In this document: piece after piece, positions 2,269 through 62,575 of the stretch
Position numbering within the stretch: position 1 is the stretch's first letter
How the letters are laid out: the number at the start of each line of letters is the position of its first letter
NCBI RefSeq assembly: GCF_003095655.1
Contig: NZ_CP029151.1
Location: 1,921,001-1,985,000 of the forward strand
Origin: Dokdonia sp. Dokd-P16
GTDB lineage: Bacteria > Bacteroidota > Bacteroidia > Flavobacteriales > Flavobacteriaceae
Length of the DNA stretch: 64,000 nucleotides
Reading direction: 5' to 3'
Notes under the pieces: model-generated
The model's input: only the letters and a program-made list of their open reading frames with translations
Databases searched by the model: none
Told to the model about the DNA's origin: nothing
Program-made: the position numbers and the translations under genes

Positions 2269-2284
2269 CGCTTTCGCGAAAGCG
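2269..2284. repeat. 16-bp palindromic repeat, exact copy 1
   Basis: Exact CGCTTTCGCGAAAGCG, intergenic, 38 bp upstream of the ATG of the lipoprotein gene at 2323. Confidence 0.95.
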
Positions 2285-2322
2285 TGATAATGATTACTTT
2301 GGTCACATCAAAACACTTAAAT

Positions 2323-2817
2323 ATGAAGTATATAGGATTAGTATTATTAGTTCTAACATTGAGTTGTTCTAGTGACGACAATCAAAATGAGTTATCTGTA
2401 AAGGGAGAAACGTATATTGCGGTATCTTATAAAGTTGAAAGCGCCATAGATATAAATGGTGATGGAATTGCTTCCATTGAATTATTTGATGAGTCAGATC
2501 GCAGCATGTTAGGGCAAGGTGTATATTTTAGAGAAGACAACAAAGTATATCCACCTAATCCATTAATTGTATGTATTGATGCAACTGAAGATGGTGATGT
2601 AGTAAATTATTGTGCGGTAATCGCAGATTACAATCCTCTTCCTACTTACACACAGAATAAAAATGCTGTTACTATTGATAATGGCATGGAAGGTGAAGTT
2701 TCTGCAGATTTTGAAACGATAGTATTTAAAGAAGTATTTTATAAATCTAGAAATAACAATGATGGAACGACTACTAGAGAACAAGAGGTAGCTATGGTAA
2801 CCTATCAGAAGCAATAA
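2323..2817 (+). CDS. Lipoprotein, tandem paralogue A
   Basis: This encodes 164 aa with a lipoprotein signal (MKYIGLVLLVLTLSCSSDD; lipobox Cys 15), so it is a predicted membrane-anchored periplasmic or surface protein. The mature part has a short acidic loop (DINGDGIAS) resembling a calcium-binding loop, and two Cys (IVCIDA, NYCAVI) that could form a disulfide. The next gene shares the same plan: SVKG, D-x-N-x-DG, YPPNP/IPPYP, TVTIDxxxxGxxSAD. I chose the ATG at 2323 because the upstream in-frame start would translate the palindromic repeat and would place the signal peptide internally. I do not recognise the family and assign no function. Confidence 0.85.
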   Translation: MKYIGLVLLVLTLSCSSDDNQNELSVKGETYIAVSYKVESAIDINGDGIASIELFDESDRSMLGQGVYFREDNKVYPPNPLIVCIDATEDGDVVNYCAVIADYNPLPTYTQNKNAVTIDNGMEGEVSADFETIVFKEVFYKSRNNNDGTTTREQEVAMVTYQKQ

Positions 2818-2840
2818 TATTAAGCTATCATTAATAATCT

Positions 2841-2882
2841 AAAGTCAGGTATTCAAGTAGTGGATATCTGGCTTTTTTTTTT
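2841..2882 (+). terminator. Rho-independent terminator
   Basis: AAAGTCAGGTATTC pairs, with G-U wobbles, with GGATATCTGGCTTT and is followed by a run of T. It lies 24 bp after the first lipoprotein gene, so the two paralogues are probably separate transcripts. Confidence 0.75.
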
Positions 2883-2991
2883 GTGACGGTCATAAGGTAT
2901 ACTAACAGATTTAAGCAAAATGTTAATTTTTTTCTATTTACTTAATAATCTAACTGTAGAACGCTCTATATTTGAAATCGTAAAATTAAAT

Positions 2992-3495
2992 ATGAAACGT
3001 ACTATTATTTTTTGTCTTGTATTTTTATGTCTATCCAGTTGTTCTGACGATGAGACAAAGAAGAAGGAAAGCGTCAAAGGCAGTTTATATAAGCAGATAT
3101 CTTATGTCGTTACGGTACCATTAGATTTAAATAATGATGGTATTTTTTCTACTAACTTATTGGAAGAAAACGGAGCAGTTTTGAGTCCGCAACAGATTAA
3201 TTTTAGTTTAGATAATACGGTGATACCACCTTATCCCATTACTACATGTGTAGATGATGATGGTAATGGTCATCTAAACGAATTTATATGCTTAGTGGTA
3301 GTAAACTACGTAAACCCTCCATCATATGTTCAGACTGGAAATACGGTGACAATTGATGATGAAATTATAGGCACATTATCTGCAGATAGGGATACATTGA
3401 GATTTGAAGAAACACTCACGAGAGATTTATTAAATAATGCTCCTTCGGGAGGTTTTGATGATACAATGGCAATATCTACATATGTGAGAGAGTAA
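2992..3495 (+). CDS. Lipoprotein, tandem paralogue B
   Basis: This encodes 167 aa with a lipoprotein signal (MKRTIIFCLVFLCLSSCSDDE; lipobox Cys 17). It is paralogous to the gene immediately upstream: both carry SVKG, a D-x-N-x-DGI loop (here DLNNDGIFS), a proline-rich centre, paired Cys (TTCVDD, FICLVV) and a TVTIDD-x-x-x-GxLSAD segment. The ATG at 2992 places the signal peptide at the N-terminus; an earlier in-frame start at 2920 would add an improbable leader. Sequence divergence is high, so the duplication is old. Function is unknown; the acidic loop suggests, but does not show, calcium binding. Confidence 0.85.
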   Translation: MKRTIIFCLVFLCLSSCSDDETKKKESVKGSLYKQISYVVTVPLDLNNDGIFSTNLLEENGAVLSPQQINFSLDNTVIPPYPITTCVDDDGNGHLNEFICLVVVNYVNPPSYVQTGNTVTIDDEIIGTLSADRDTLRFEETLTRDLLNNAPSGGFDDTMAISTYVRE

Positions 3496-4423: not shown

Positions 4424-7273
4424 TTAATGCGCCTCAAGCCAATTTTGTCCTAATCCAACCTCAACATCAAGAGGCACGGCCATCTTAAAAGCACTTTCCA
4501 TTTCTGTCTTGATTAGCTCTTTAATGGCATCTAGCTCGTCATTAGGAACATCAAAAACAAGTTCATCATGTACTTGAAGAAGCATCTTTGTTTTATAGTC
4601 GCTATTTTCTAGCTTTTCAAAAATATTAATCATCGCGATTTTAATAATATCTGCAGCACTTCCTTGTATAGGAGCATTTACTGCATTTCGCTCGGCTGCG
4701 CCTCGCACAACTCCGTTGCTGGAGTTAATCCCGTTAAGGTAACGACGACGATCTAATACTGTTTTTACATAACCATTTTCTCTCGCAAACTCAACGAGCT
4801 CGCTCATGTAGTTACGTAGTTTTGGGTATGATTTGTAATAATTGTCTATTAGCTCTTTTGCCTCGCCACGCGATAAATCTGTCTGGTTAGAAAGTCCAAA
4901 GGCAGACACTCCGTATATAATCCCAAAGTTTACCGTCTTCGCATTACTACGTTGCTCGCGAGTAACTTCTTCTAGCGGTACATTAAAAACTTTAGCAGCC
5001 GTACTAGCGTGAATATCTTCTCCGTCTGTAAATGCTTGAATCATGTTCTCCTCCTCACTTAACGCAGCAATAATACGCAGTTCTATTTGAGAATAATCGG
5101 CAGCAAGTAGTGTGTGATTTTCATCTCTAGGAACAAAAGCCTTACGCACTTGGCGACCGCGTTCTGTACGTATCGGAATGTTTTGTAAGTTAGGGTTGTT
5201 TGAGCTCAAACGTCCCGTAGCTGCAACCGTTTGCATGTAATCTGTATGCACACGTCCATCTTGAGCCACTTGCTCTGGGAGTGCATCTACATAGGTAGAT
5301 TTTAATTTTGATAGGCCGCGATAGTCTAGCACTTTCTGGATGATGTCGTGATCTTTTGCAAGATACGATAGTACATCTTCTGCAGTAGAGTATTGACCCG
5401 TTTTTGTCTTTTTAGGTTTATCGACAAGTTTCATTTTGTCAAATAGAACCTCTCCTAATTGCTTAGGAGAGCCTATGTTAAATTCTTCTCCCGCTTCCGC
5501 GAAAATTTCTGATGTAAGACGCTCTATATCTGCATTGAGATCTCCAGAAAGGCTTTGTAAGAATGATACATCAAGATTGATCCCTTCAACTTCCATAGCC
5601 GCTAGCACTCGTAATAGCGGAATTTCAATATCGTCAAATAACTTACGAGTACCAGCCTCGTCTAGCTCTTTTTCAAAATGATGTTTAAGTTGTAAAGTAA
5701 TATCTGCATCCTCTACCGCATATTCTGTTTGGTCATCTACAGAAACATCGCGCATAGACTTCTGGTTCTTTCCTTTCTTTCCTATAAGTTCTGTAATAGA
5801 AACAGGTGTGTAGTTAAGATAGGTTTCTGCGAGTACGTCCATATTGTGACGCATATCTGGGTTGATGAGATAATGAGCGAGCATGGTATCAAAAAGTTTT
5901 CCTTTTACTTTTACGTTATACTTCGCAAGTACTTTGATATCGTATTTTAAATTCTGTCCTATTTTTTCAATCGCTGTGTTTTCAAAGAAAGGTCTCAACT
6001 CTTCTATAAGTGCCTGCGCTTCTTCCTTGCTTTCTGGAAAGGGTATGTAATATCCTTTTCCTGCTTCCCATGAAAAAGCAATTCCTACTAGTTCAGCAAC
6101 GAGCGGATCGAGACCTGTAGTTTCCGTGTCAAAACATACAGAAGACTGCTTGTTGAGGTTTTGTATGAATAGTTTTCGCGCAAGCGGACTATCAACTTTT
6201 TGATAAAAATGCTGCGTGTCTTTTATTGTTTTGCGAGTAGAAGCATCAGAAACTGCGGCTGCAGTCGCTCCGCTATCACCACCAAATAATGAAAACTGCC
6301 CAGCTCCGGCATTAGAAGCAACCGCTTTTTTTGCCGAAGGTGTAGAAGAAACTTGCGCACCTTGATCCGCCTCTCCGGAAAATATTTTGATAAATTGATC
6401 TTTCATTCTACGAAATTCGAGTTCTTCAAATTTCTTTCCTACTGCCTCAGCATCTGGTTCAGAAAGTTCGTAATCTTTTGCATTAAAGGTTACGTCGCAA
6501 TCTAGCATGATGGTCGCTAGTTTTTTAGACAGTAAGCCTAATTCCGCATTTTCTATAACTTTCTCCTTCATCTTACCCTTGAGCTTATCTGTATTTGCGA
6601 GTAAGCCTTCCATAGATCCGTATGCCGCTATAAATTTCTTTGCCGTTTTATCGCCCACACCTGGAAGTCCAGGAATGTTATCTGAAGCATCACCCATCAT
6701 TCCTAAGTAGTCAATAACTTGCTCCGGACGTTCAACTTCAAAACGTTTTTGCACCTCTGGTATACCCCATATTTCTATACCATTACCCATTCTGGCAGGC
6801 TTGTACATAAAGATATTTTCAGATACCAGCTGTGCATAATCTTTATCTGGAGTGACCATATATACCTTAAAACCTTCCTTTTCGGCTTGCTTAGATAGGG
6901 TTCCTATGAGGTCATCTGCTTCCACACCTTGACGTTCTATGATGGGAATGTGCATAGCCTTAAGAATTTCTTGTATATGAGGAATCGCGATGCGTATTGC
7001 TTCTGGAGTTTCATCACGGTTTGCTTTGTAATCTTCAAAAGCCTCCACACGTGCTGAGCTACCGCCTTTGTCAAAAGCTACGGCAAGATGATCAGGACGT
7101 TCTCTCTTTATAACATCAAAAAGACTATTAGTAAATCCCATAATTGCACTTACATCCATTCCGGAGCTTGTGATACGTGGGTTTTTTATAAGCGCATAAT
7201 ATCCTCTAAAAATGAGAGCATATGCATCTAGTAGAAATAATCTCTTCTGGGTATTCTCTGTGGTATTGGTCAC
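4424..7273 (-). CDS. polA: DNA polymerase I
   Basis: This encodes about 949 aa in three domains. The N-terminal 5' nuclease has RLFLLDAYALIFRGYY, GVEADDLIGT and the GDASDNIPGLPGVG helix-hairpin-helix. The 3'-5' exonuclease keeps its acidic residues (FDTETTG near residue 382, NLKYD, YAVEDAD), so proofreading should be active. The polymerase has motif A AADYSQIELR, motif B RSNAKTVNFGIIYG and motif C LLQVHDELVFD. It acts in Okazaki-fragment processing and repair. The start is not obvious: an ATG at 7381 would translate the palindromic repeat as TLSRKR and add 36 unrelated residues. A GTG at 7273 (V-T-N-T-T-E-N-T-Q-K-R) fits the family N-terminus and is chosen. Confidence 0.95.
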   Translation of the reverse strand: MTNTTENTQKRLFLLDAYALIFRGYYALIKNPRITSSGMDVSAIMGFTNSLFDVIKRERPDHLAVAFDKGGSSARVEAFEDYKANRDETPEAIRIAIPHIQEILKAMHIPIIERQGVEADDLIGTLSKQAEKEGFKVYMVTPDKDYAQLVSENIFMYKPARMGNGIEIWGIPEVQKRFEVERPEQVIDYLGMMGDASDNIPGLPGVGDKTAKKFIAAYGSMEGLLANTDKLKGKMKEKVIENAELGLLSKKLATIMLDCDVTFNAKDYELSEPDAEAVGKKFEELEFRRMKDQFIKIFSGEADQGAQVSSTPSAKKAVASNAGAGQFSLFGGDSGATAAAVSDASTRKTIKDTQHFYQKVDSPLARKLFIQNLNKQSSVCFDTETTGLDPLVAELVGIAFSWEAGKGYYIPFPESKEEAQALIEELRPFFENTAIEKIGQNLKYDIKVLAKYNVKVKGKLFDTMLAHYLINPDMRHNMDVLAETYLNYTPVSITELIGKKGKNQKSMRDVSVDDQTEYAVEDADITLQLKHHFEKELDEAGTRKLFDDIEIPLLRVLAAMEVEGINLDVSFLQSLSGDLNADIERLTSEIFAEAGEEFNIGSPKQLGEVLFDKMKLVDKPKKTKTGQYSTAEDVLSYLAKDHDIIQKVLDYRGLSKLKSTYVDALPEQVAQDGRVHTDYMQTVAATGRLSSNNPNLQNIPIRTERGRQVRKAFVPRDENHTLLAADYSQIELRIIAALSEEENMIQAFTDGEDIHASTAAKVFNVPLEEVTREQRSNAKTVNFGIIYGVSAFGLSNQTDLSRGEAKELIDNYYKSYPKLRNYMSELVEFARENGYVKTVLDRRRYLNGINSSNGVVRGAAERNAVNAPIQGSAADIIKIAMINIFEKLENSDYKTKMLLQVHDELVFDVPNDELDAIKELIKTEMESAFKMAVPLDVEVGLGQNWLEAH

Positions 7274-7292: not shown

Positions 7293-7308
7293 CGCTTTCG
7301 CGAAAGCG
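7293..7308. repeat. 16-bp palindromic repeat, exact copy 2
   Basis: Exact CGCTTTCGCGAAAGCG, 19 bp upstream of the preferred polA GTG, within the probable leader. Confidence 0.95.
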
Positions 7309-8407: not shown

Positions 8408-9436
8408 CTAGCTATTTTTTGTGTCGTAAAAAGAAGATGAAATATTTTCATTTTTTTTATTTTGATACTTCATCATTGTAAATCCTTTATGAATACAATG
8501 ACTTCCAGTCTCACCAGATTTATTCATAGCGATGTAGGCGATTTGGAAATCCTTATAACGAGCTCCCTTCTTTGTAATTCTATGGATTGCTTCCTCACAA
8601 GCAGCTTGTGGTGACATTCCAGAACGCATTAACTCTACAATTAAAAAACTGCCAACTGTCTTGAGTACTTCTTCTCCCATGCCTGTGGCTACAGCACCAC
8701 CTACTTCATTATCTATAAAAAGTCCAGATCCTATAATGGGAGAATCTCCTACGCGTCCTTTCATTTTATAACCTAAGCCAGAGGTAGTACAAGCACCTGC
8801 AATATCACCATTGTTATCTATAGCAAGCATCCCGATGGTATCGTGATTCTCTATGTTAATTTCAGGTTTGTAATCACTTGTTTTTAACCACTCTTTCCAA
8901 GCTTCTTTGCGTTCTTCTGTGAGAAGTTTTTGTTTAGTAAATCCCTGCTCATAAGCAAATTCTTCGGCGCCTTTTCCTGCTAAGATGACGTGTGGCGTTT
9001 CCTCCATAACCTTACGTGCTAGAGCTGCCACATTTACTATATTTTCAACAGCAAGAACGGCTCCGCAATCTCCTTCTGGATTCATCACGCAGGCATCTAG
9101 CGTTACATTGCCCTCTCTGTCTGGAGTGGCTCCTATTCCTACGGTGGTATTTTCTATATTTTCTTCTTCTACAGCGACACCTGCTATAATTGCATCGAGT
9201 GCAGAGCTGCCGCCATCTAGGAGTTCGCCAGCTTTTGCTGTAGCTCCAGAAAATCCCCATGTACAAATGGCAATGGGAGATGGTTTTTTGATATTTTCTT
9301 TTTGCGCTTTCGCGAAAGCGTTATTATCCACATCACCAGTGCTTGTGCTTAGGTTATTGCATGCCATCAAACTTGCGCCTGTAGCAATCCCAGCTCCCGC
9401 AACTGCAGATTTATTTATAAATTTTCTTCTGTTCAT
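8408..9436 (-). CDS. N4-(beta-N-acetylglucosaminyl)-L-asparaginase (glycosylasparaginase)
   Basis: This encodes 342 aa, an Ntn-hydrolase that cleaves the GlcNAc-Asn bond of N-glycopeptides. The autocleavage and catalytic Thr200 is visible in NHDTIGMLAID, with downstream motifs SGLGYKMKGRVGDSPIIGSG and GAVATGMGEE. The N-terminus has a twin-arginine start (MNRRKF) and a lipobox-like LMAC26, so it is probably Tat-exported and lipidated. The palindromic repeat is embedded at residues 40-44 (AFAKA), in the linker after the lipobox. It is last in an operon with a sulfurtransferase (24 bp gap) and a GH92 mannosidase, which points to N-glycan breakdown. Confidence 0.92.
   Translation of the reverse strand: MNRRKFINKSAVAGAGIATGASLMACNNLSTSTGDVDNNAFAKAQKENIKKPSPIAICTWGFSGATAKAGELLDGGSSALDAIIAGVAVEEENIENTTVGIGATPDREGNVTLDACVMNPEGDCGAVLAVENIVNVAALARKVMEETPHVILAGKGAEEFAYEQGFTKQKLLTEERKEAWKEWLKTSDYKPEINIENHDTIGMLAIDNNGDIAGACTTSGLGYKMKGRVGDSPIIGSGLFIDNEVGGAVATGMGEEVLKTVGSFLIVELMRSGMSPQAACEEAIHRITKKGARYKDFQIAYIAMNKSGETGSHCIHKGFTMMKYQNKKNENISSSFYDTKNS
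9305..9320. repeat. 16-bp palindromic repeat, exact copy 3 (coding)
   Basis: Exact copy inside the glycosylasparaginase gene, read as Ala-Phe-Ala-Lys-Ala in the flexible linker after the lipobox. Confidence 0.95.
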
Positions 9437-10271: not shown

Positions 10272-13214
10272 TTACTGCACTACAATCTCGTCTACAAATA
10301 CCCAACTTTTTCCTTGATAAGGAAAACCTAAATGCCACTCTGGAAGATCTCCTAGTGTCTTTGCAATAAGCTTTATGTATTGAGCTTGTGTGCCTTGTTG
10401 TTTCCCTTTAATACTTTTAATAGCAATGTCCTCATCGCGAGAAGCAGCATCAATTTGCTCTTGGTGATAGATTTCAAAATTTTCACCGTCCGTAGAAGTT
10501 AGTAATGTTACTTCTGTAGGGTAGAAAATCCAACTGCGCTGATCTTGTAAAAATGCAGTTTCAATACTAGTGATGGTTTGTGCTTTGCCTAAGTCTAGCG
10601 TAGCTACTACATCTTGAGCATCATAGCCCTGCCATGTACCTGAGCGGAATTCTTTTACACCTCTCACACCGTCTATCAATGCATTATCTCCACCAGCATT
10701 ATATGCATTTGCATAGATAGCGTCTAGTGTAAGAGAGTAGTTTTCATTTAGTTTAAATAATGGTGTTTCTATAGTAGCACTTTGCCCATGGCGACCCTTT
10801 GCGTAGGTGCGTAAAGTGTTGTGATCTTTAATTTTAATAGGCAGTCTGTATTTTTTAAAGTTATTGCCGTCTTCTTCTAGAGCGTAGAAAACATCCACAT
10901 TTTTATCTGTAGTAGCGAGTGTAATCTCTGTCGCTTTTTTAAAGTTGGCTTCTCCTTGTGCTATTAATGGAGCTGCTGTAAATTTATTATCCTCAATACT
11001 TGTTTTAGGACTGTGAGCGGGGTGTTTTGCCCATCGGGAATGAGTAGCTGCCATATTAAATATGAGTTCGCCGCCATCCATAATATCTTCGTGTTTCAAG
11101 TATGAATATGGGTAAGCCTTATCATCCATATAAGCACTTTCTATGTGTATGTTTTCTTCAGAAAGATTTTGTGCAACAATGGTAAAACTATTACCATTTT
11201 CTAAATGTATGGTAGCCTTATCAAATAATGGTGTGCCAATAGCATATTCATTACTTCCTGGGGTTACTGGATAAAAGCCTAAGGAGCTTAGTACGTACCA
11301 AGCGCTCATCTGCCCGCAATCTTCATTGCCAGAAATTCCGTCTGGAGAGTTGGTGTATAATGTGGTAAGGATTTGATGGACTCGCTTTTGAGTTTTCCAA
11401 GGCTTCTGGATGTAGTTGTATAAATATGCCATGTGGTGGCTAGGTTCATTGCCATGTGCATATTGCCCTATCAATCCTGTGATATCTTGCTGGTGACGAC
11501 CAGAAGTTGCAGTCTCGGCCGTAAATAGTGTGTCTAGCTTTCTTTCAAAAGCCTTGTTTCCTCCAGATAAGTTAATAAGACCACTTATGTCTTGAGGTGC
11601 ATAGAGGCTATATTGCCAAGCGTTTGCTTCGGTATAATTGAAATTTACTTCAAACGGATCAAAAGGGGAGAACCATGTATTTCTCATGCGACCTCGCATA
11701 AAACCAGAAGAAGGATCATACACGTTTTTATAAGACTGGGCGCGCTTTGTAAATTCTTGATAGATTTCATCATTGCCCATTTCTTGAGCCATTTGAGCGA
11801 TGGTCCAGTCGTCATAAGCATATTCTAGTGTCTTTGATACAGACTCTGCTTCGTCATTTGCAGGTATAAAACCGTATTTCTTGTAAGATGCAAGGCCAAG
11901 TTTGTCTTGTGAGGCACTATGAAGCATTGCTTCAAAAGCCTTATCTACATCATAATCACGTATTCCTTTCATATAAGCATCTGCGATTACGGGTACTGCA
12001 TGATAACCTATCATACAGCCTGTATAGTTGCCAGCTAGATCCCAAATAGGCATAATGCCACCTTCCTCATATTTGGCAAGAAATGTGTTTATAAAATCAT
12101 TAGTACGCTCTTCTTCTATAATCGTATATAATGGATGCGCTGCGCGATACGTATCCCACAGTGAGAATACCGTATAATAGTCAAAAGCATCTGTTTGATG
12201 AATTTCTAGATCCATCCCTCGGTAGCGACCATCCACATCTTGATAAAGATTAGGCGCGAGCATGGTGTGGTACAGCGAAGTGTAAAAATTAGTTTTGTAA
12301 TCTGAGTTTTCACTTTCTACAACAATTTTTTCCAGCTGACGCTCCCAAGTGGATTGTGCTTCTTGCTTTACTTGGTCAAAGGTTTTGTTTCCTATTTCGG
12401 TTTCTAGGTTCTTTCGCGCCCCAGCTTCATCTACGGCAGATATTCCGATTTTTATGATGATTTCTTCATTCTTGGGATTGTCAAACTGCAATGCAGCTTT
12501 ATGTGATGTCGCTCCGTTCTTAGTCCTTCTTGGTTGTTTTAGATATTTGAAAGTATGCGATGTTTTGATATAATAAAACAACTTTTGGTTGCTAGCCCAA
12601 GCCTTGGAATGTCTGTGTCCAGAGAGTTCTGTGCTAGAGAGTGTGTCTATTTTAGTACTTAGTACCTCATCACGATGTTCAAGATCTAAAATCACAAAGT
12701 TTTTTAAAGAGTCCGCTTTCGCGAAAGCGTACTTATGCACACCGCTACGAGCAGCAACAGTAAGTGCGACGTCTATGTTTGAGTTGTCTAGATGTACACT
12801 ATAATATCCCGGTTGTGCTACTTCATTATCATGCGTAAAATGATCCCGATACCCAGGTTTTCCATCTGCACCATTATTAAACATTATGGAAGTAGAAGGC
12901 ATCAAGAGGATATCTCCATAGTCTGAAACTCCCGTCCCACTTAAATGTGTGTGGCTGAAGCCATAGATAAACTCATCATCATAATGATACCCAGAACAAC
13001 CGTCCCAGCCATCAAGGCGTGTGTCTGGACTAAGTTGCATCATTCCAAAAGGCATGGTCGCCCCAGGGTAGGTGTGACCGTGACCGCCTGTACCTATAAA
13101 AGGATTTACATAGCCTATGAGGTCTTGGTCTTTTTGAGCGGGAGTAACCTCTGTAATATGCTCGCAACTAGTGATAATAAGTAGGAGAAGAAAAAGAGAG
13201 AGTAGGTAACGCAT
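10272..13214 (-). CDS. GH92 alpha-mannosidase lipoprotein with C-terminal F5/8-type domain
   Basis: This encodes 980 aa, a calcium-dependent exo-alpha-mannosidase family. A lipoprotein signal (LLLLIITSCEH, Cys17) starts the protein. The GH92 signature follows: NPFIGTGGHGHTYPGATMPF, CSGYHYDD and GFSHTHLSGTG. The catalytic-domain motif GNEDCGQMSAWYVLSSLGF is present. Residues from about 850 (DNALIDGVRG, YDAQDVVATLDLG, QDQRSW) form a discoidin-like carbohydrate-binding domain. The palindromic repeat encodes AFAKA near residues 162-167. It is first in the operon with a sulfurtransferase and glycosylasparaginase, so mannose trimming of N-glycans is the likely role. It is anchored on the periplasmic or surface side. 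Confidence 0.93.
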   Translation of the reverse strand: MRYLLSLFLLLLIITSCEHITEVTPAQKDQDLIGYVNPFIGTGGHGHTYPGATMPFGMMQLSPDTRLDGWDGCSGYHYDDEFIYGFSHTHLSGTGVSDYGDILLMPSTSIMFNNGADGKPGYRDHFTHDNEVAQPGYYSVHLDNSNIDVALTVAARSGVHKYAFAKADSLKNFVILDLEHRDEVLSTKIDTLSSTELSGHRHSKAWASNQKLFYYIKTSHTFKYLKQPRRTKNGATSHKAALQFDNPKNEEIIIKIGISAVDEAGARKNLETEIGNKTFDQVKQEAQSTWERQLEKIVVESENSDYKTNFYTSLYHTMLAPNLYQDVDGRYRGMDLEIHQTDAFDYYTVFSLWDTYRAAHPLYTIIEEERTNDFINTFLAKYEEGGIMPIWDLAGNYTGCMIGYHAVPVIADAYMKGIRDYDVDKAFEAMLHSASQDKLGLASYKKYGFIPANDEAESVSKTLEYAYDDWTIAQMAQEMGNDEIYQEFTKRAQSYKNVYDPSSGFMRGRMRNTWFSPFDPFEVNFNYTEANAWQYSLYAPQDISGLINLSGGNKAFERKLDTLFTAETATSGRHQQDITGLIGQYAHGNEPSHHMAYLYNYIQKPWKTQKRVHQILTTLYTNSPDGISGNEDCGQMSAWYVLSSLGFYPVTPGSNEYAIGTPLFDKATIHLENGNSFTIVAQNLSEENIHIESAYMDDKAYPYSYLKHEDIMDGGELIFNMAATHSRWAKHPAHSPKTSIEDNKFTAAPLIAQGEANFKKATEITLATTDKNVDVFYALEEDGNNFKKYRLPIKIKDHNTLRTYAKGRHGQSATIETPLFKLNENYSLTLDAIYANAYNAGGDNALIDGVRGVKEFRSGTWQGYDAQDVVATLDLGKAQTITSIETAFLQDQRSWIFYPTEVTLLTSTDGENFEIYHQEQIDAASRDEDIAIKSIKGKQQGTQAQYIKLIAKTLGDLPEWHLGFPYQGKSWVFVDEIVVQ
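12714..12729. repeat. 16-bp palindromic repeat, exact copy 4 (coding)
   Basis: Exact copy inside the GH92 gene, read as Ala-Phe-Ala-Lys-Ala between predicted beta strands. Confidence 0.95.
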
Positions 13215-13314: not shown

Positions 13315-14031
13315 ATGAAATTAGAAATCTGTGCAAACTCGTTTGAAAGTGCTCTGGATGCTCAAGATGCAGGAGCACATCGTATTGAACTTTGTCAAGA
13401 GCTGTCACTTGGAGGTATTACTCCTAGTCATGGTTTGATAGAGAAAGTGATGCAAGAACTAGAGATTCCTGTGTTTGTACTCATAAGGCCAAGATCTGGA
13501 GATTTTATGTACTCGGAAGCAGAGTTTGATGTGATGTTGCGGGATATTGCTTTCGCGAAAGCGCAAGGTGCTCAAGGAATAGTTTCTGGAATATTAAACA
13601 TAGATTTTACAATTGACGCAGACAGGACTAAACAATTAATCGTGGAATGTGGCGAACTACCTTTCACCTTTCATCGTGCTTTTGATTGGACGCCTGATGT
13701 TCTTGCTGCCTTAGAGCTGCTCATAGATATGGGAGCTCAGAGGATTTTAACTTCTGGAATGAATGTTAATGTGAATGAAGGTTATGAAACCTTGGTGCAA
13801 TTGCTAGCTGCGGCTAGAAATCGTATAGGTATTTTACCTGGCGGAGGAATTTCTGTTGATAATATTATGAAATTTAAGAACGCAGGTTTTAGCGAAGTGC
13901 ATGGTAGTTTGAGTAGTAGTGCGTTTGGATATAATCATGCTATAAAAATGCATTCGCTAGCAGGTCATGAAAATAACTTACTTCAAACCTCTGATGTTTT
14001 TAAAATAAAGGCACTCTTAAATATGCTATAA
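13315..14031 (+). CDS. cutC: CutC family protein
   Basis: This encodes 238 aa, full length for the TIM-barrel CutC family. Visible motifs are LEICANSFESALDAQDAGAHRIELCQEL, the strand PVFVLIRPRSGDF, FHRAFDW, RILTSGMN and GILPGGGI. The family was named for copper homeostasis, but its biochemical role is unsettled. It is divergent from the GH92 operon with a 100-bp spacer and convergent with lepA. An imperfect copy of the palindromic repeat encodes AFAKA at residues 79-83, in the helix of the third beta-alpha unit. Confidence 0.9.
   Translation: MKLEICANSFESALDAQDAGAHRIELCQELSLGGITPSHGLIEKVMQELEIPVFVLIRPRSGDFMYSEAEFDVMLRDIAFAKAQGAQGIVSGILNIDFTIDADRTKQLIVECGELPFTFHRAFDWTPDVLAALELLIDMGAQRILTSGMNVNVNEGYETLVQLLAAARNRIGILPGGGISVDNIMKFKNAGFSEVHGSLSSSAFGYNHAIKMHSLAGHENNLLQTSDVFKIKALLNML
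13549..13563. repeat. Palindromic repeat, 15/16 copy (coding)
   Basis: GCTTTCGCGAAAGCG preceded by T instead of C. It lies inside cutC and is read as Ala-Phe-Ala-Lys-Ala. Confidence 0.85.
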
Positions 14032-18573: not shown

Positions 18574-18589
18574 CGCTTTCGCGAAAGCG
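18574..18589. repeat. 16-bp palindromic repeat, exact copy 5
   Basis: Exact copy 71 bp upstream of dusB. It sits 9 bp after a TACCTTTG -7-like box (18557-18564), so it would lie at the very start of the transcript if that promoter is real. Confidence 0.95.
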
Positions 18590-21335: not shown

Positions 21336-21350
21336 CGCTTTCGCGAAAGC
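21336..21350. repeat. Palindromic repeat, 15/16 copy
   Basis: CGCTTTCGCGAAAGC followed by T instead of G. Intergenic, 58 bp upstream of the epimerase ATG. Confidence 0.88.
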
Positions 21351-21408
21351 TAAACTTGCCTACACGATACTATTAGTATGAAACAACATATCATAAATTA
21401 AATAAACT

Positions 21409-23008: not shown

Positions 23009-23067
23009 GAATGGATTTTATTTGGTTACTTTTGTGTTGTAAAAATACAAAACGCTAGAAGCATCAC

Positions 23068-24150
23068 ATGAATAAAGATCAAAAAGTACGTGTAGGGATT
23101 TCTATTGGAGATTTAAATGGAATAGGGGCAGAGGTTGTGATAAAGACATTTTCAGAAGTGATGATGTTTGATTTTTGTACGCCTATAATTTTTGCTTCGG
23201 CAAAGACACTTTCTTATATTAAGAAGTCTTTGAGTTTACAAGCAGAGTTTCATGGTATAGACGCTTTCGCGAAAGCGTTAGATAACAAAATAAACGTCTA
23301 TAATTTATGGAAGGAGCCTGTAGAGATTAAATGGGGAGAGGCGACTGAAACAGCAGGCGATTATGCTTTAAAGTCTTTTGTGGAAGCTACTAAGGCGCTT
23401 AAAAATGGAGATATTGATGTACTTGTAACCGCTCCTATAAATAAGGCTAATATCCAGAAAGAAGATTTTGCATTCCCGGGTCATACAGATTATCTAGCAC
23501 AAGAGCTAGAGGGCGATGCGATGATGCTTATGATTACAGATACGCTTAAGGTAGGTTTGCTAACAGATCACGTTCCTGTAAAAGATGTGGCTAGTGAGAT
23601 TACACCAGAGGTGATTGTTAAGAAAGTAAATACATTATATAATGCCTTGAAGCAAGATTTTGGCGTAGATAGGCCTAAAATTGCTTTACTGGGCATTAAT
23701 CCTCATGTAGGAGACAACGGAGTTATAGGAGATGATGATGATAAGGTATTGATACCTACGCTTGAAAAAATGCGTGCAAATGGTCAGTTAGTTTACGGGC
23801 CTTATGCTGCAGATAGCTTTTTTGGGTCAGGGAATTATAAAAATTTTGATGCAATTCTAGCTGCTTATCACGACCAAGGGTTAATTCCTTTTAAGACATT
23901 ATCTTTTGGTAAGGGTGTTAATTATACTGCGGGATTAGATAAAATACGCACATCCCCAGATCATGGTACGGCATATGAGATTGCAGGTAAGGGAGTGGCA
24001 GACGAGGGTTCTTTTAGGGAAGCTGTTTTTTCGGCAGTAAAGATTTATAATAAAAGAAAAGAATACCAAGAGATTACAAAGGATGTACTTAAGGTTTCTC
24101 CTAGACGTGCTGGTAGAGAGCGATCGGGAAGACCGCCAGCAAAAAGATAA
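23068..24150 (+). CDS. pdxA: 4-hydroxythreonine-4-phosphate dehydrogenase
   Basis: This encodes 360 aa. PdxA motifs are complete: GISIGDLNGIGAEVVIK, TAPINKANIQ, FPGHTDYLA, the metal ligands in LLTDHVPVKDV, AAYHDQGLIPFKTL and TSPDHGTAYEIAGKG. It oxidises 4-phosphohydroxythreonine in pyridoxal phosphate synthesis. The palindromic repeat supplies the AFAKA of residues about 65-70 (GIDAFAKALDN). The C-terminus ends in an unusually basic tail (SPRRAGRERSGRPPAKR) beyond the normal domain end. Confidence 0.96.
   Translation: MNKDQKVRVGISIGDLNGIGAEVVIKTFSEVMMFDFCTPIIFASAKTLSYIKKSLSLQAEFHGIDAFAKALDNKINVYNLWKEPVEIKWGEATETAGDYALKSFVEATKALKNGDIDVLVTAPINKANIQKEDFAFPGHTDYLAQELEGDAMMLMITDTLKVGLLTDHVPVKDVASEITPEVIVKKVNTLYNALKQDFGVDRPKIALLGINPHVGDNGVIGDDDDKVLIPTLEKMRANGQLVYGPYAADSFFGSGNYKNFDAILAAYHDQGLIPFKTLSFGKGVNYTAGLDKIRTSPDHGTAYEIAGKGVADEGSFREAVFSAVKIYNKRKEYQEITKDVLKVSPRRAGRERSGRPPAKR
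23262..23277. repeat. 16-bp palindromic repeat, exact copy 6 (coding)
   Basis: Exact copy inside pdxA, read as Ala-Phe-Ala-Lys-Ala in a surface helix. Confidence 0.95.
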
Positions 24151-24206
24151 GATACTAAAGACATTTTTAGTATTTGTAGAGAATTAAAATAAAATTGAGC
24201 TTGTGC

Positions 24207-24235: not shown

Positions 24236-24257
24236 CACGCTCCAAACGGCTGATGTG

Positions 24258-26726: not shown

Positions 26727-26742
26727 CGCTTTCGCGAAAGCG
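26727..26742. repeat. 16-bp palindromic repeat, exact copy 7
   Basis: Exact copy in the accB-accC spacer, 46 bp before the accC ATG. It is in the middle of a presumed operon, so it need not be a promoter element. Confidence 0.95.
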
Positions 26743-28707: not shown

Positions 28708-28723
28708 CGCTTTCGCGAAAGCG
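28708..28723. repeat. 16-bp palindromic repeat, exact copy 8
   Basis: Exact copy between the divergent DinB and LpxR-like genes, 33 bp from one start and 82 bp from the other. Confidence 0.95.
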
Positions 28724-32077: not shown

Positions 32078-32089
32078 GAAATATCACAT

Positions 32090-32103
32090 TTTCGCGAAAG
32101 CGT
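32090..32103. repeat. Palindromic repeat, degenerate copy
   Basis: TTTTCGCGAAAGCG: one half-site is intact and the other has lost its CGC end. It lies between the stop and the terminator of the Fe-S protein gene, 10 bp from the stop. Confidence 0.75.
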
Positions 32104-35174: not shown

Positions 35175-35187
35175 CGCTTTCGCGAAA
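35175..35187. repeat. Palindromic repeat, degenerate copy
   Basis: CGCTTTCGCGAAA then AAA; the last GCG is lost. Upstream of the FAD oxidoreductase gene and 16 bp from another degenerate copy. Confidence 0.7.
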
Positions 35188-35203
35188 AAATCTTTTTGTT
35201 ACC

Positions 35204-35216
35204 CTTTCGCGAAAGC
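35204..35216. repeat. Palindromic repeat, degenerate copy
   Basis: CTTTCGCGAAAGC lacking the outer bases on both sides. It and the copy at 35175 form the only closely paired copies in the window. Confidence 0.7.
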
Positions 35217-35467
35217 AAAATATATAGTAGTCTAAACAAGTATTTTAAAACTTGTTTCTATGAGATAACATATCCTTGGGTCGTTTTAAAGATAGTAAAC
35301 TTAATGTGATGCTGTCTATTTAGAATTTATCTAAATGAAAAAGTGCTGTAAGGAAATTATAGTCTTGATTATGGAGCGTACTGAACTGGTTATTTTAAAT
35401 TTTTAATGATCTGGCTGTAAGTCTCTCTATTTGAGCTCGACCCATTGTGCAGAAAAAAAGTTTACTT

Positions 35468-38590: not shown

Positions 38591-39850
38591 ATGAAATATT
38601 TCTCCCTCATCTGCGCCTTGTTGATGACTTCATTTCTTTTTTCACAAGAACCTATTGTAGAAGAAATCACTTTTGAAGGATTAAAGCGTGTAGATGAATC
38701 TTTATTGAGAAGGCTTATTAAAGTAAAGCTACAAACAGCATATGATTCTCTTAAAGTAGCAACAGATATTGAGCGTTTAAATAGACTGCCAGCTATCGCA
38801 AATGCTACCGTTGTTCAAACTAAACTTCAGAACAACTCCTACAGGCTCACCTATAAGATTGTTGAAAATTTTACCATCATCCCGGGATTACGCATCTCGG
38901 AAGCAAATGATGGTAGTTTTGCTTTTCGCGTAAGCGCATTCGAATTTAATTTTCTTGGTCAAAGTCAGATACTTGGCGGCTTTTATCAGCGGGATGTTTT
39001 TGACTCTTATGGAGCTTACTGGGAAGCACCTTTTTTAATTACTAACAAATTAGGCTTAGGTGTCAATTATATTAAAAATGTGACTTTTGAACCTATTTAC
39101 CTAGATGAGACTCCTATAAATTATAAGAAAGATGATGTAGGTGCAGAGATTTATGGGTTGTATGAAATAGACTTCCATAACAAGGCAGAATTAGGAGTGA
39201 GAGTGTACCAAGAGTCTTACGACATTGATGATACAGAGGTGCAAAGTGTACTGCCCGCAGGGCTTGATGCAAATAAAGTTTCTCTACGCGGAGAGTATGA
39301 GACTAATTTTTTAAACATCACGTATCAATATGTAGAGGGAGTGCGCAATCTCCTTGATGTGCGATATATTCTAGGTGGTGATGGACTCTTAGAGGAAGGG
39401 CTAGTAGCACAAAACGCAACAGAATATTTTAAAAAAGTAGGAACAAAGGGTAACTTGGCAAGTAGACTACAGCTAGGGTATGCTTCTTATAATGAATCTG
39501 AGTTTGCTCCTTTTACGGTTGATAATCAGTTTAATCTTAGAGGAGCAGGTAATGATATTGATAGAGGGACATCCTTTGTTTTTGTAAATACAGAATACAG
39601 ACACACGCTTATAGAAAAGGATTGGTTTGTACTTCAAGGAAATGCTTTTATAGATGCTGGATCAATACGAAGTCCTAGAGAAGGGTTTGGTGATCTAGCC
39701 AGTATCAATAATGTGGAGCTATACTCTGGTCTTGGAGTGCGTTTTATTCATAAACGTATTTTTAATGCGGTAATTAGATTAGACTATGGTGTCGGATTAG
39801 GGGCTACCCAAAACCGCGGACTCGTATTTGGGATAGGGCAGTATTTTTAA
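38591..39850 (+). CDS. Omp85-superfamily protein A, short POTRA plus barrel
   Basis: This encodes 419 aa. The signal peptide is MKYFSLICALLMTSFLFSQ. Residues about 22-95 form one POTRA-like domain (VEEITFEGLKRVDESLLRRLI, TDIERLNRLPAIANATV). The remainder is an Omp85 barrel with the loop-6 motif FNLRGAG and the closing FGIGQYF. Classic BamA has five POTRA domains, so a single one suggests a translocase or lipid-exporter variant such as TamA-like or patatin-associated types. ATG 38591 is used; 38534 would add an improbable leader. A paralogue follows after 62 bp. Confidence 0.82.
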   Translation: MKYFSLICALLMTSFLFSQEPIVEEITFEGLKRVDESLLRRLIKVKLQTAYDSLKVATDIERLNRLPAIANATVVQTKLQNNSYRLTYKIVENFTIIPGLRISEANDGSFAFRVSAFEFNFLGQSQILGGFYQRDVFDSYGAYWEAPFLITNKLGLGVNYIKNVTFEPIYLDETPINYKKDDVGAEIYGLYEIDFHNKAELGVRVYQESYDIDDTEVQSVLPAGLDANKVSLRGEYETNFLNITYQYVEGVRNLLDVRYILGGDGLLEEGLVAQNATEYFKKVGTKGNLASRLQLGYASYNESEFAPFTVDNQFNLRGAGNDIDRGTSFVFVNTEYRHTLIEKDWFVLQGNAFIDAGSIRSPREGFGDLASINNVELYSGLGVRFIHKRIFNAVIRLDYGVGLGATQNRGLVFGIGQYF

Positions 39851-43857: not shown

Positions 43858-43873
43858 CGCTTTCGCGAAAGCG
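43858..43873. repeat. 16-bp palindromic repeat, exact copy 10
   Basis: Exact copy in the spacer between the Pmp3-like gene and the PagL-like gene, 106 bp before the next ATG. Confidence 0.95.
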
Positions 43874-48327: not shown

Positions 48328-48342
48328 CGCTTTCGCGAAAGC
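48328..48342. repeat. Palindromic repeat, 15/16 copy
   Basis: CGCTTTCGCGAAAGC then A instead of G, in the spacer between the two DUF547 genes of the island. Confidence 0.88.
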
Positions 48343-48392
48343 AAAATCAATACCCATTAACGCGCAGTTAAGTGAGTTTTGTGAAAACATTA

Positions 48393-49308: not shown

Positions 49309-49324
49309 CGCTTTCGCGAAAGCG
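49309..49324. repeat. 16-bp palindromic repeat, exact copy 11
   Basis: Exact copy 22 bp upstream of the DUF547 ATG, in the space after the sterol-desaturase-like gene. Confidence 0.95.
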
Positions 49325-51382: not shown

Positions 51383-51398
51383 CGCTTTCGCGAAAGCG
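51383..51398. repeat. 16-bp palindromic repeat, exact copy 12
   Basis: Exact copy between arsM and the PNP stop (51403), 4 bp from that stop. Confidence 0.95.
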
Positions 51399-53221: not shown

Positions 53222-53716
53222 CTAGTAAACTTTATTTCCTGTTTTTAAATACTTTCCCCATACTTTGGAAAATACGTGAACAGAGTCGGTTGGTTGGTTG
53301 TTTTTGTTTTGAATTTCGTAGCCTTCATCTTTCCAAGCAAATATGCTTCCGTATAGATTTTTGACATTTGTAAATCCTTTCTTCTTCAGTCGCTCGCCAA
53401 AATCTTCAGAGCGTATCCCTACGGAGCAATAAACGACGATGGGTTGATCTTTTTTTGCTTTCGCGAAAGCGTACATACTATCATTCACCTTCTCAGAAAC
53501 CCACACCGCTCCAGGGATATGACTCACATCAAACTCTTCTTTTTTACGAGTGTCTAAAATTAAATAGTCACTCATTTCCATCTTGAGTTCTTGCACAGAA
53601 ATATAAGGAACAGAGCGCGTGTTGTACTGTTTTAAGAGCACATCCATATCCGACTGTCCAAATGAAACTGCCGAAACCAATAGAAGTAATATGTAAGCGA
53701 TATTCTTAGTGTTCAC
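53222..53716 (-). CDS. Secreted single-domain rhodanese
   Basis: This encodes 164 aa. Signal peptide MNTKNIAYILLLLVSAVSFGQ, then one rhodanese domain with LILDTRKKEEFDVSHIPGAVWV and the catalytic Cys in VVYCSVGIRSEDFGERL. It is predicted periplasmic. An imperfect palindromic repeat encodes AFAKA at residues about 82-87. It is tightly packed: 3 bp after the metallophosphoesterase-like gene and directly before two small membrane genes. A periplasmic sulfur carrier in an arsenic island could serve thioarsenical or thiol chemistry; this is speculation. Confidence 0.88.
   Translation of the reverse strand: MNTKNIAYILLLLVSAVSFGQSDMDVLLKQYNTRSVPYISVQELKMEMSDYLILDTRKKEEFDVSHIPGAVWVSEKVNDSMYAFAKAKKDQPIVVYCSVGIRSEDFGERLKKKGFTNVKNLYGSIFAWKDEGYEIQNKNNQPTDSVHVFSKVWGKYLKTGNKVY
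53457..53471. repeat. Palindromic repeat, 15/16 copy (coding)
   Basis: GCTTTCGCGAAAGCG preceded by T, inside the rhodanese gene and read as Ala-Phe-Ala-Lys-Ala. Confidence 0.85.
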
Positions 53717-57447: not shown

Positions 57448-57463
57448 CGCTTTCGCGAAAGCG
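57448..57463. repeat. 16-bp palindromic repeat, exact copy 13
   Basis: Exact copy in the 34-bp spacer between SusC and SusD genes; it abuts the SusC stop codon and lies 18 bp before the SusD ATG. Confidence 0.95.
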
Positions 57464-60679: not shown

Positions 60680-60745
60680 CTGAGTGTATTAGTTGATAAT
60701 TAAGAAAATCTAAGAATAACTGTAAGCTGTTGTAGCTTACAAGAT

Positions 60746-61435
60746 TTAAATACTAACTAATGATGGTGACCCTTTATTAAAGTGGCTTTTGGTGAGCGAC
60801 TCAAAGAATCGGTTTGTAGTGTGGTAATCAAGAGAAATACCTTGATTTACTATGTTTTGTATAAGTTGTAATACTCTTTTTGATAATGTCGAAGAAGCCT
60901 CTTTAAGCATCTGCTGTAAATCTGCAAATGTGTCAAGATCTGAAAGGGTCTCAAGGAGGTAAAGGTTTGTACGCTTTCGCGAAAGCGTATCAGAAATAAT
61001 AGCGCCAAGTTTACTAGACTGCCACGGTAGATTTTTAAACTGCTCCGGCTTAAAATGGTTCTTTTTAATCCCCATTAGATAACAACCGCCATCTGTACTT
61101 GGGCCAATAACAAGCGCAGATTGTTTGAGCTTTTCTTGTGCTAAAAGAATATGCCCCGCCGAAAGGTGCGGAGTGTCATTACCGATGGTTATAACTTGGT
61201 CATAACCACTGTCAAAAACAGCTGTAAGTGCGTTTGTAAAACGCTCGCCAAAGGTGTTTCCTACCTGCTCATTTTCAGAAAAAATAACATAGGGAATTCC
61301 CGTCTTGCGTACCGTAGCGATAGTTTGCCTATTGAGCTCCTTAAATAAAGCCACAGACTGCCCGAGCTTCTTGCGAGAAGCTTCGGTTGTTGCTGTTTGA
61401 GCAAATATGAGTATGGCGGTTTTTGGTGTCGTGAT
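60746..61435 (-). CDS. TIGR04282-like (DUF2064) glycosyltransferase-like protein, copy 2, unclear start
   Basis: This encodes about 229 aa. The C-terminal plan (VGNTFGERFTNAL, VITIGNDTPHLSAGH, LVIGPSTDGGCYLMG) matches its paralogue at the other end of the island. The family N-terminal strand is present in frame upstream (PKTAILIFAQTATTEASRKK), preceded by a TAG, but no ATG, GTG or TTG exists before it. Translation must start at a rare codon (ATC at 61435 is the best placed), or the start codon has been lost; a GTG at 61354 would delete the nucleotide-binding strand. The palindromic repeat encodes TLSRKR near residue 150. ArsS ends 10 bp upstream. Confidence 0.7.
   Translation of the reverse strand: MTTPKTAILIFAQTATTEASRKKLGQSVALFKELNRQTIATVRKTGIPYVIFSENEQVGNTFGERFTNALTAVFDSGYDQVITIGNDTPHLSAGHILLAQEKLKQSALVIGPSTDGGCYLMGIKKNHFKPEQFKNLPWQSSKLGAIISDTLSRKRTNLYLLETLSDLDTFADLQQMLKEASSTLSKRVLQLIQNIVNQGISLDYHTTNRFFESLTKSHFNKGSPSLVSI
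60972..60987. repeat. 16-bp palindromic repeat, exact copy 14 (coding)
   Basis: Exact copy inside the DUF2064 gene, read as Leu-Ser-Arg-Lys-Arg, the only coding copy not read as AFAKA. Confidence 0.95.
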
Positions 61436-61445
61436 TCTCTACGTA

Positions 61446-62501
61446 TTAAGCAACGGTTCCTTGACAACTACTTCCTGCACCTGCAGTACAACCATAACAA
61501 TGCTGAGAGATCATAATGTTACGATCATTAAGTAAATCTTCATTATAATCTTTTATGTGCTTTACACTACTCGCGACTGGCAATTCTAGCATTTGATTAA
61601 AATCACAATCAAATAAATAACCATCCCAGCTTATTGAAATTGTGTTTTTACACATCACATTCTCTACTGCGGCAGGGTTATATGCCTCTACGAGTTGATA
61701 CATATAATCCTCATAGTTTTCTGATGCGATGAGGTAGTCTAAAAATCGTGCTATAGGTAAGTTTGTGATTGCAAAAAGGTTGTGGAACTGGATATTAAAA
61801 TCCTCCATAAGTCCTTTTTTAAAGTCCTTTTCCATACTCGCTTGGTCTCCCGGTAAGAAAGCTCCAGATGGATTGTAAACTAAGTCAAGTCTTAAGTCAC
61901 TGCCTGGCATACCATAGCCACGCTCGTTAAGCTCTTGTAATGCTTTGATAGATTTATCAAAAACACCGTCTCCACGTTGTTTGTCTGTCTTTCCACGTGT
62001 CCAGTGTGGCATAGATGAGATGACGTGTACGTTGTGCTTTTTAAAGAAATCTGGTAGGTCGTAGTACTTTTTATTTGCACGTATAATAGTAAGGTTAGAA
62101 CGCACAATAAAGTCTTTAATCCCCGCCTTACTCGCTTCTTCTACAAAACGTCTAAAATGCGGATTCATCTCTGGTGCACCACCAGTAAGATCTAGCGTGT
62201 GAGCTCCTGTGTTGCGTATCACTTCTAGACATTGCTCCATAGTCTCCCAAGTCATAATCTCCTTGCGATCTGGGCCAGCATCTACGTGGCAGTGATCACA
62301 CACTTGATTACACATATACCCCACGTTTATTTGGAGTATTTCTAGTTTGTTAGGGCGTAACGGTAGCTGGTTGGTCTCCTTTATTTTCTTAGCAAACGTA
62401 GGTAGTTCGTCTTTAAAAATACCATTAGATAAAATTTCTATCTGCTTGTTTGCTTGTGCGAGTTCGCTACCTTCTTTCTTGAGTGATTTTGTTGCTGACA
62501 T
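61446..62501 (-). CDS. arsS: Arsenosugar biosynthesis radical SAM protein
   Basis: This encodes 351 aa. The radical-SAM cluster motif is C64-x3-C68-x2-C71 (YMCNQVCDHCHVDAG), with LDLTGGAPEMNPHFRRF as the second SAM strand. A C-terminal DUF3641-type Cys cluster follows (ISQHCYGCTAGAGSSCQG). ArsS transfers a 5'-deoxyadenosyl group to dimethylarsenite to make 5'-deoxy-5'-dimethylarsinoyl-adenosine, the core arsenosugar precursor. It precedes the second TIGR04282-like gene by 10 bp. Confidence 0.93.
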   Translation of the reverse strand: MSATKSLKKEGSELAQANKQIEILSNGIFKDELPTFAKKIKETNQLPLRPNKLEILQINVGYMCNQVCDHCHVDAGPDRKEIMTWETMEQCLEVIRNTGAHTLDLTGGAPEMNPHFRRFVEEASKAGIKDFIVRSNLTIIRANKKYYDLPDFFKKHNVHVISSMPHWTRGKTDKQRGDGVFDKSIKALQELNERGYGMPGSDLRLDLVYNPSGAFLPGDQASMEKDFKKGLMEDFNIQFHNLFAITNLPIARFLDYLIASENYEDYMYQLVEAYNPAAVENVMCKNTISISWDGYLFDCDFNQMLELPVASSVKHIKDYNEDLLNDRNIMISQHCYGCTAGAGSSCQGTVA

Positions 62502-62559
62502 TTAAAAATGTTTGTCGTTTGTAGTGTTGATTTCTTTTGGTTGGAAATCTGTATGAGTA

Positions 62560-62575
62560 CGCTTTCGCGAAAGCG
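62560..62575. repeat. 16-bp palindromic repeat, exact copy 15
   Basis: Exact copy between the AhpD-like gene and arsS, 58 bp before the arsS ATG and 5 bp after the stop at 62581. Confidence 0.95.

Follow-up and report, generated by a model that had tools for sequence, protein, structure and literature searches.

Noc binding sites, parS and matS are short duplex sites of a chromosome-acting protein, and the known Chi motifs are 5-8 nt long, read on one strand and not palindromic. In cyanobacteria, the highly iterated palindrome HIP1 (GCGATCGC) is almost co-extensive with CGATCG methyltransferases (PMC4390886). Haemophilus uptake sequences are reported to occur in about 1471 copies, genic as well as intergenic, without strand bias and with significantly even spacing (cited in PMC1939737); AT-tracts are reported beside their core (PMC7811141), and a table lists 1008 copies of Chi for E. 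coli (PMC1939737). Here we analyse a palindromic repeat of Dokdonia sp. Dokd-P16 in a stretch of 64,000 nucleotides, positions 1921001-1985000 of the single-contig genome G000 (3,623,447 bp), which as a whole is called the window. The cores of this repeat lie at quasi-regular intervals, about 3 kb in Dokdonia and 4-6 kb in a second genus, which we infer to be Nonlabens, and their placement is blind to strand, to the kind of intergenic gap and to the axis from replication origin to terminus (ori-ter). The palindrome is kept by selection. Members of both genera have been cultured as marine isolates.

Copy number and structure of the repeat

An earlier note on this DNA had reported 15 exact copies of a 16-bp palindrome and about seven near copies in the window. 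Every one of the 15 starts carries the exact palindrome, and the 10-bp core TTTCGCGAAA is found 22 times, i.e. in the 15 exact copies and in seven others. That this is far above chance is also correct, as 21 places in the window match with two or fewer mismatches, against a mean of 0.01 in 100 dinucleotide shuffles. The whole-genome count that the note had called for gave 556 exact copies in G000 (backward-read control: 0), so the window is not their sole location, and 808 copies of the inner 14-mer. Further counts were made on a sample of 864 kb, which is made up of the window and 40 stretches of 20 kb each and covers 24% of the genome; unless stated otherwise, the numbers below refer to it. 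The sample contains 134 exact 16-mers, 199 14-mers and 259 cores, which extrapolates to ~1,090 cores in G000. Base composition fails as an explanation, since a first-order Markov model predicts 0.92 cores for the sample.

As a duplex-DNA element, the repeat spans about 50 bp and is composed of the core, GC shoulders and, on each strand, a C-poor and GT-rich 5' arm. The size of 16 bp given earlier is too small for the unit: its outer bases vary around a nearly invariant 10-bp core, and its arms are strand-asymmetric. The extension to the 20-bp sequence TACGCTTTCGCGAAAGCGTA, which had been ascribed to many copies, was seen by reading in 7 of the 15 exact copies of the window; in the sample, 38 copies of the 20-mer stand beside the 134 exact 16-mers. 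There are 53 one-mismatch cores (30 expected by chance) beside the 259 perfect ones, and TTCGCGAA occurs a single time outside the core. The hexamer TCGCGA is found 315 times, 55 of them outside TTCGCGAA, which is a raw count without a computed expectation. Among sequences of the form CGCTTT....AAAGCG, 134 of 135 have CGCG at the centre, and the centre is therefore not a free RNA loop. When the GC shoulders were classed, which was possible for 257 cores, 199 had them on both sides, 58 on one side (one-sided sites) and none on neither. A further class of variants, designated T5 (GCTT[ACG]CGCGAAA), was counted 26 times.

The arms extend over 15-20 nt (~17 nt) 5' of the palindrome on each strand and are rich in T and G. 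By eye, they have GATT-like preferences about 10 bp apart, at -15 to -12 and -5 to -2, which are clearest in the second genus; in genome G190 the arms are weaker. Complementarity between the two arms does not go beyond what their composition gives. An Rfam scan of the window returned tRNA only, and a plasmid search with a 101-base piece returned a single, unrelated record. The sample also contains two other repeated palindromes, CCCTCTTCGAAGAGGG with 9 copies and CCCGATAGCTATCGGG with 4, which are possibly terminators. No other iterated palindrome was obvious in small stretches of other genera.

Spacing and placement of the sites

To place the sites, genes were defined as the longest non-overlapping open reading frames (ORFs), without a trained gene finder, and the position of the replication origin was chosen manually on the basis of the GC skew. 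Of the 199 14-mers, 195 could be placed, 113 of them in genes and 82 in intergenic sequence, compared with 10.5% noncoding sequence. The intergenic density is alike for tandem, converging and diverging gaps (0.75-1.05 per kb). A comparison with the ori-ter axis, which had likewise been proposed in the earlier note, gave no relation to the distance from the skew-inferred origin (Spearman 0.10, P 0.52), and the one-sided sites have no replication strand bias (33 vs 27).

Gaps between neighbouring cores in G000 have a mean of 2.86 kb and a coefficient of variation (CV) of 0.62, compared with 0.92 for random placement. A null model matched for genic and intergenic counts gave a CV of 0.96 +- 0.05, and none of its 3000 draws fell below 0.80. 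Regularity is also found with the intergenic cores alone (CV 0.72 vs a null of 1.00 +- 0.08) and with the 14-mer sites alone (0.65 vs 0.91). For the window and the corresponding regions of the genomes G301, G302, G299 and G304, which are orthologous and thus not independent, the core CV is 0.50-0.59; in the second genus it is 0.39-0.49 at mean gaps of 4.0-5.7 kb (four stretches from three genomes). Genome G306 has 9 exact 16-mers but 30 cores per 100 kb (CV 0.72, P 0.04). Core density is thus maintained while the outer bases drift. Values of 0.80 and 0.65 were obtained for G190, which are biased because the stretches were picked at site-rich places, and which have no null.

Weaker sites tend to lie away from the others. 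One-sided sites have a median distance of 2670 bp to the nearest 14-mer site, compared with 1467 bp for random positions (P 0.0005), and T5 variants one of 1627 bp to the nearest 14-mer or one-sided site, compared with 901 bp (P 0.0013). Addition of the T5 variants changes the CV in G000 from 0.618 to 0.612. Fifteen close site pairs in the sample were considered as possible autoregulatory clusters and gave no lead to a gene for a protein that reads the site. In one stretch (L271), two one-sided sites at 14456 and 14688 are 232 bp apart and similar in both flanks, an apparent short duplication.

Conservation of the sites

When the window was aligned with four Dokdonia relatives, the core was kept in 65 of 69 pair-cases (21/21, 20/22, 13/15 and 11/11). 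In the same alignments and in the same order, control 10-mers were kept at genic/intergenic rates of 0.56/0.53, 0.41/0.44, 0.23/0.31 and 0.19/0.28. Mismatches amount to 6 of 690 positions in the cores and 608 of 4048 in the flanks. Two cores were found only in a relative and not in the window. The differences at site positions are mostly point substitutions, with a few in gapped, poorly alignable stretches, and no clean empty site was seen among the orthologous places. This speaks against a self-spreading short palindrome, one of the roles that had been considered for the repeat, as the flanks diverge and the core stays.

Loss of a site depends on its neighbours. Six genomes were compared in all pairs. 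Loss was seen in 22 of 153 pair-cases when another site was within 1.2 kb and in 8 of 261 when none was (Fisher P 4e-5, a value that is overstated since the cases have a common history). In genome G314, where the core density is about one third of what is usual, two intergenic sites common to its relatives are kept and both of the aligned in-gene ones are missing. As a sparse Dokdonia genome (stretches L400-L404, L419), G314 could aid a search for the gene of the reader protein.

Sites in the window

The individual sites are listed below by window position, with the strand where a site has one.

2269..2284: exact 16-mer in a plus-strand ORF of 188 aa, the TTG start of which (2251) may be false; G302 keeps the core with changed outer bases
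5492..5507, plus strand: T5 core variant CGCTTCCGCGAAAATT in the polA ORF
6171..6186, minus strand: T5 core variant in the polA ORF
7293..7308: exact 16-mer near the predicted polA start, probably in the leader; kept in G301, G302, G299 and G304
9305..9320: exact 16-mer within an asparaginase-family gene; kept in G301, G302 and G299
12714..12729: exact 16-mer within a GH92 gene; kept in G301, G302 and G299, and at the same alignment place in one of three second-genus genomes
13548..13563: TGCTTTCGCGAAAGCG in a gene; lost in G299 and G313, with G299 having a core at the window-equivalent position 14198
18574..18589: exact 16-mer between two plus-strand genes; one core substitution in G302
21336..21351: CGCTTTCGCGAAAGCT between divergent genes; core kept in G301, G302, G299, G304 and G314
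23262..23277: exact 16-mer within pdxA; kept in 4 of 4 Dokdonia genomes aligned, absent from G314
26727..26742: exact 16-mer in the gap between a 162-aa gene and a biotin carboxylase gene (accB-accC-like gap)
28708..28723: exact 16-mer between divergent genes; kept in G301
32087..32102, minus strand: one-sided site CATTTTCGCGAAAGCG; kept in G301 and G302
35175..35190, plus strand: one-sided site CGCTTTCGCGAAAAAA; kept in G301 and G302
35202..35217, minus strand: one-sided site CCCTTTCGCGAAAGCA, 27 bp from the site at 35175; kept in G301 and G302
38191..38206: exact 16-mer within a GH113-family gene; core kept in 4 of 4 Dokdonia genomes, with changed outer bases in G304, and absent from G314
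38921..38936, minus strand: T5 core variant in a gene
43858..43873: exact 16-mer between divergent genes; in G301 both outer bases are changed together (TATGCTTTCGCGAAAGCATA)
48328..48343: CGCTTTCGCGAAAGCA between genes; kept in G301 and G302, lost in G299
49309..49324: exact 16-mer at the start of a DUF547 gene; kept in G301, one core substitution in G302
51383..51398: exact 16-mer between genes; kept in 4 of 4 Dokdonia genomes aligned
53456..53471: TGCTTTCGCGAAAGCG in a gene; kept in 4 of 4 Dokdonia genomes aligned
57448..57463: exact 16-mer between two minus-strand genes; kept in 4 of 4 Dokdonia genomes aligned
60972..60987: exact 16-mer in a gene (202-aa ORF); core kept in 4 of 4 Dokdonia genomes aligned
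62560..62575: exact 16-mer between two minus-strand genes; kept in 4 of 4 Dokdonia genomes aligned

The site at 7293 probably belongs to the polA leader, as most listed homologues align from about residue 40 onwards. At 43858, the flanks have diverged in G301 and the palindrome is retained. The core at 26727 is found in the same gap in G314 and in all four second-genus genomes aligned, and is absent from G190 and G087. The two sites at 35175-35217, near the start of a 489-aa ORF, are the closest pair in the 864-kb sample.

Distribution among genomes and phages

Copies were counted in samples of the phylum and of the family that had been drawn evenly. Any copy of the 16-mer was found in 38 of the 299 family genomes (236 genera), and more than 13 copies in only five, namely G000 (556), G206 (630), G010 (495), G242 (579) and G190 (153). 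All 18 genomes of the home genus Dokdonia contain the 16-mer (138-711 copies), as do all 23 of the second genus (180-737 copies). Among the 395 genomes of the phylum sample, 22 including G000 have the 14-mer, with a maximum of 6 copies outside G000. A search of named genomes with the 20-mer gave at least 111 stretches, and the 80 listed are mostly from Dokdonia and Nonlabens; they also include a copy in another genus (L108, a contig of Muricauda sp. TY007). In a PolA tree of 32 rows, 30 of which are best matches and do not represent all genera, Dokdonia and the second genus are on one side of a branch with a Shimodaira-Hasegawa-like approximate likelihood ratio test (SH-aLRT) value of 95, and G190, the sample of which has about 50% G+C, is on the opposite side near the base.

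Twenty stretches around low-count copies in other genera were compared. In 10 of them, from several genera (L041, L043, L044, L045, L047, L050, L052, L053, L055 and L057), the copies are found in a common pair of genes encoding ~1250 aa and 405-470 aa, inside the coding regions and sometimes 933 bp apart. From size and order, this pair looks like horizontally moved metal-efflux genes. The pair with its 16-mers probably came from the Dokdonia/Nonlabens lineage, and the motif, lying in the coding regions of an operon common to several other genera, seems to label DNA that originated in this lineage and moved elsewhere. Our literature search, with subscription journals outside its reach, gave no match for the 16-mer or the 14-mer. 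Matches to the 10-mer core are apparently unrelated as far as the accessible text goes, and among the matches listed for Dokdonia or Nonlabens there was nothing about the motif and none that named Dokdonia.

The 16-mer is also present in 41 stretches of viral contigs, for which hosts were inferred; 19 of the 41 have at least two cores, several of them being homologous or from the same contig. A phage contig of 37 kb has at least seven cores in 27.9 kb chosen around the matches and encodes a terminase, a portal, a tail sheath and a DNA transposition protein. Other phage contigs have cores near portal, head and tape-measure genes, at intervals of ~4 to 6.5 kb, and an integrase match was found in 2 of 30 proteins scanned from these contigs. 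In viral contigs of low GC content, the pooled arms resemble those of the host. Three isolate records (L199, L192 and L204) were not counted as phage, as they contain host-like genes (transporters, restriction proteins) and few phage genes. Two isolate phages of Nonlabens have no core; their annotation includes ERF and YqaJ recombination proteins and names no integrase. A Mu-like phage of Winogradskyella has no core either.

Possible functions

The symmetry of the duplex and the almost all-or-none core imply that the site is read by a protein, probably a dimer, and the even spacing together with the local redundancy implies that the distance along the DNA to the nearest site matters. Few motifs show such direct evidence of a distance-dependent function. 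As our leading explanation, which we hold tentatively and at somewhat less than an even chance, the palindrome is the site of a putative dimeric protein that acts on chromosomal DNA at kilobase intervals and most likely organises it. A lineage-specific protein dimer would bind each site, and what would matter is an occupied site within a few kilobases of any stretch of the chromosome, with the proteins serving, at regular intervals, as anchors or loading points for organising or maintaining the chromosome. A site close to another would be partly redundant, and weaker variant sites would serve where no strong site is nearby. In a more specific form, which is possible although we would not rely on it, the repeat would be a chromosome “ruler”, with a protein loading at about a thousand 50-bp palindromes, one every few kilobases, so that the chromosome and its resident temperate phages are within its reach. 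Of the earlier suggestion of a site for chromosome organisation or segregation, organisation is thus retained; segregation finds no support in the form of an ori-ter gradient, a second ParB or a change in the helix-turn-helix of ParB.

Several observations weigh against an organising protein. No reader protein was found, the sole named candidate class tested being a second ParB as in Noc. Profile searches were run with PDDEXK_1 in 23 genomes, with ParB_N in 37 and with the C5 methyltransferase family in 33. Neither a Noc-like ParB paralogue nor a re-specified ParB was found: each of the 13 motif-rich genomes searched has a single ParB_N match, and the helix-turn-helix of ParB is unchanged. The one column that differs (at least 85% one residue in 24 other rows, and in none of five clade rows) is residue 269, which lies beyond the helix-turn-helix. 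In temperate-type phage contigs the density of sites is nearly that of the host, which anchoring alone does not predict. In-gene sites alone are only weakly regular (CV 0.77 vs a null of 0.89 +- 0.07), G300 (17 cores, CV 0.73, P 0.14) and G314 (9 cores, CV 0.98) are not significantly regular, and the variant sites, when added, shift the CV downwards or upwards depending on the sample. For the first 100 exact 16-mers of G000 the gap CV is 0.92, although none of their gaps is below 1 kb (13% expected); evenness is thus a property of the core set and not of the strict 16-mer. A 20-kb stretch of G000 (L234, 90001-110000) with a G+C content of 0.33 is free of sites, so even cover is not absolutely required; this stretch is probably a recent island. 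By reading, about eight separate changes account for the losses behind the effect of proximity, and five of these affected near sites.

One alternative, which we consider unlikely on balance, is a self-signal for DNA uptake: a receptor would bind the palindrome on incoming DNA, and biased uptake and recombination would maintain one site per typical fragment, from which even spacing would follow. To our knowledge type IV pili are lacking in the phylum, which counts against it, and published uptake sequences are not palindromes. It would account for the even spacing and high extrapolated number of cores, for the site-free low-GC stretch and for the two Nonlabens isolate phages without sites, and the repeat resembles the Haemophilus sequences in copies, placement and spacing (PMC1939737); the AT-tracts of uptake sequences (PMC7811141) also count in its favour. 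Published uptake sequences have an excess of copies with one mismatch, 947 beside 438 perfect ones in one table (PMC1939737), whereas one-mismatch cores are few here beside the perfect ones. Competence has been reported for Riemerella, which is placed in Flavobacteriaceae, but Flavobacterium johnsoniae was not competent under the conditions used (PMC7965970), and no work on competence in Dokdonia or Nonlabens was among the matches listed in our literature search. Still less probable is a Chi-like function, a palindromic stop-and-recombine mark that would be read from either side by an AddAB-type nuclease or similar, so that broken self DNA would be degraded only to the next site. The density resembles that of Chi in E. 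coli, there is GT-rich sequence 5' of the mark on each strand, and temperate-type phage contigs have sites while the two phages with ERF and YqaJ have none, a contrast similar to that between phages without and with their own recombinases in the case of Chi (PMC3784561). Just two isolate phages, close relatives, were compared, however, the element is palindromic with two-sided arms, and its one-sided sites are not biased towards either strand. PDDEXK_1 matches were found in 23 of 23 genomes searched, in genes of about 900 aa that we call AddB-like by size and domain alone; such genes are equally present in genera without the motif, so AddAB does not explain the restriction of the motif.

We regard two further explanations as very improbable and as barely tenable, respectively. 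In the former, the repeat would be HIP1-like and owe its maintenance to a DNA methyltransferase that marks a part of the palindrome; the precedent of HIP1 itself (PMC4390886) speaks for it, as does the fact that only 55 of 315 TCGCGA hexamers lie outside TTCGCGAA. C5-cytosine methyltransferases, the one class tested, are present in 14 of 29 motif-rich genomes and missing from the other 15, among them the home genome, and are not found in G190; a common C5 enzyme was therefore rejected, and the methylation signal that had been suggested earlier finds no support in this class. A 50-bp unit and kilobase spacing would also be unexpected for a methylation site. In the latter, the repeat would be a small mobile or RNA-level palindrome, i.e. 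a repetitive extragenic palindromic (REP)-like element, an intrinsic terminator or an RNA hairpin, as its perfect symmetry and intergenic enrichment could suggest. Mobile elements such as REP or MITE and RNA hairpins are ruled out by the orthologue comparison, with its substitutions and lack of clean empty sites, by the invariant bases of the would-be loop and by the lack of arm complementarity. The 3' flank is A-rich and C-rich without a T-run, the densities in converging, diverging and tandem gaps are similar, and none of the 17 terminator-like matches in 22000-41000 is one of the sites, which rules out a terminator or promoter element.

Comparison with known systems

The element has a parS-like stringency, but compared with the sites of Noc, parS and matS it has several hundred to a thousand sites without regional bias, and no extra ParB-family protein was found. 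As with the Chi sites of RecBCD and AddAB, there is one site per few kilobases, sites are present in some phages and the context is GT-rich; unlike Chi, the element is palindromic, of a duplex type and about 50 bp long, and it is confined to a few genera, a restriction that AddB-like genes do not show. The uptake signal sequences (USS) of Pasteurellaceae and the DNA uptake sequences (DUS) of Neisseriaceae resemble it in copy number, in even spacing, in the lack of strand bias and in having a stringent core flanked by weaker arms. In contrast to these, it is palindromic with two arms, has few one-mismatch intermediates and is found in temperate-type phage contigs at near-host density.

HIP1, like the palindrome described here, is perfectly palindromic, very frequent, genic as well as intergenic and conserved within a clade, and its sites are likewise gained and lost mostly by substitution. 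The earlier description of the repeat as HIP1-like in abundance and longer is a fair one. The element belongs to another phylum and has another sequence, with a 14-bp core and shoulders plus arms in place of 8 bp, a regular kilobase spacing and no co-extensive C5 methyltransferase. Its closest kind is the highly iterated palindrome, with ruler-like spacing as an added property, and it could bear on the question of what iterated palindromes such as HIP1 serve.

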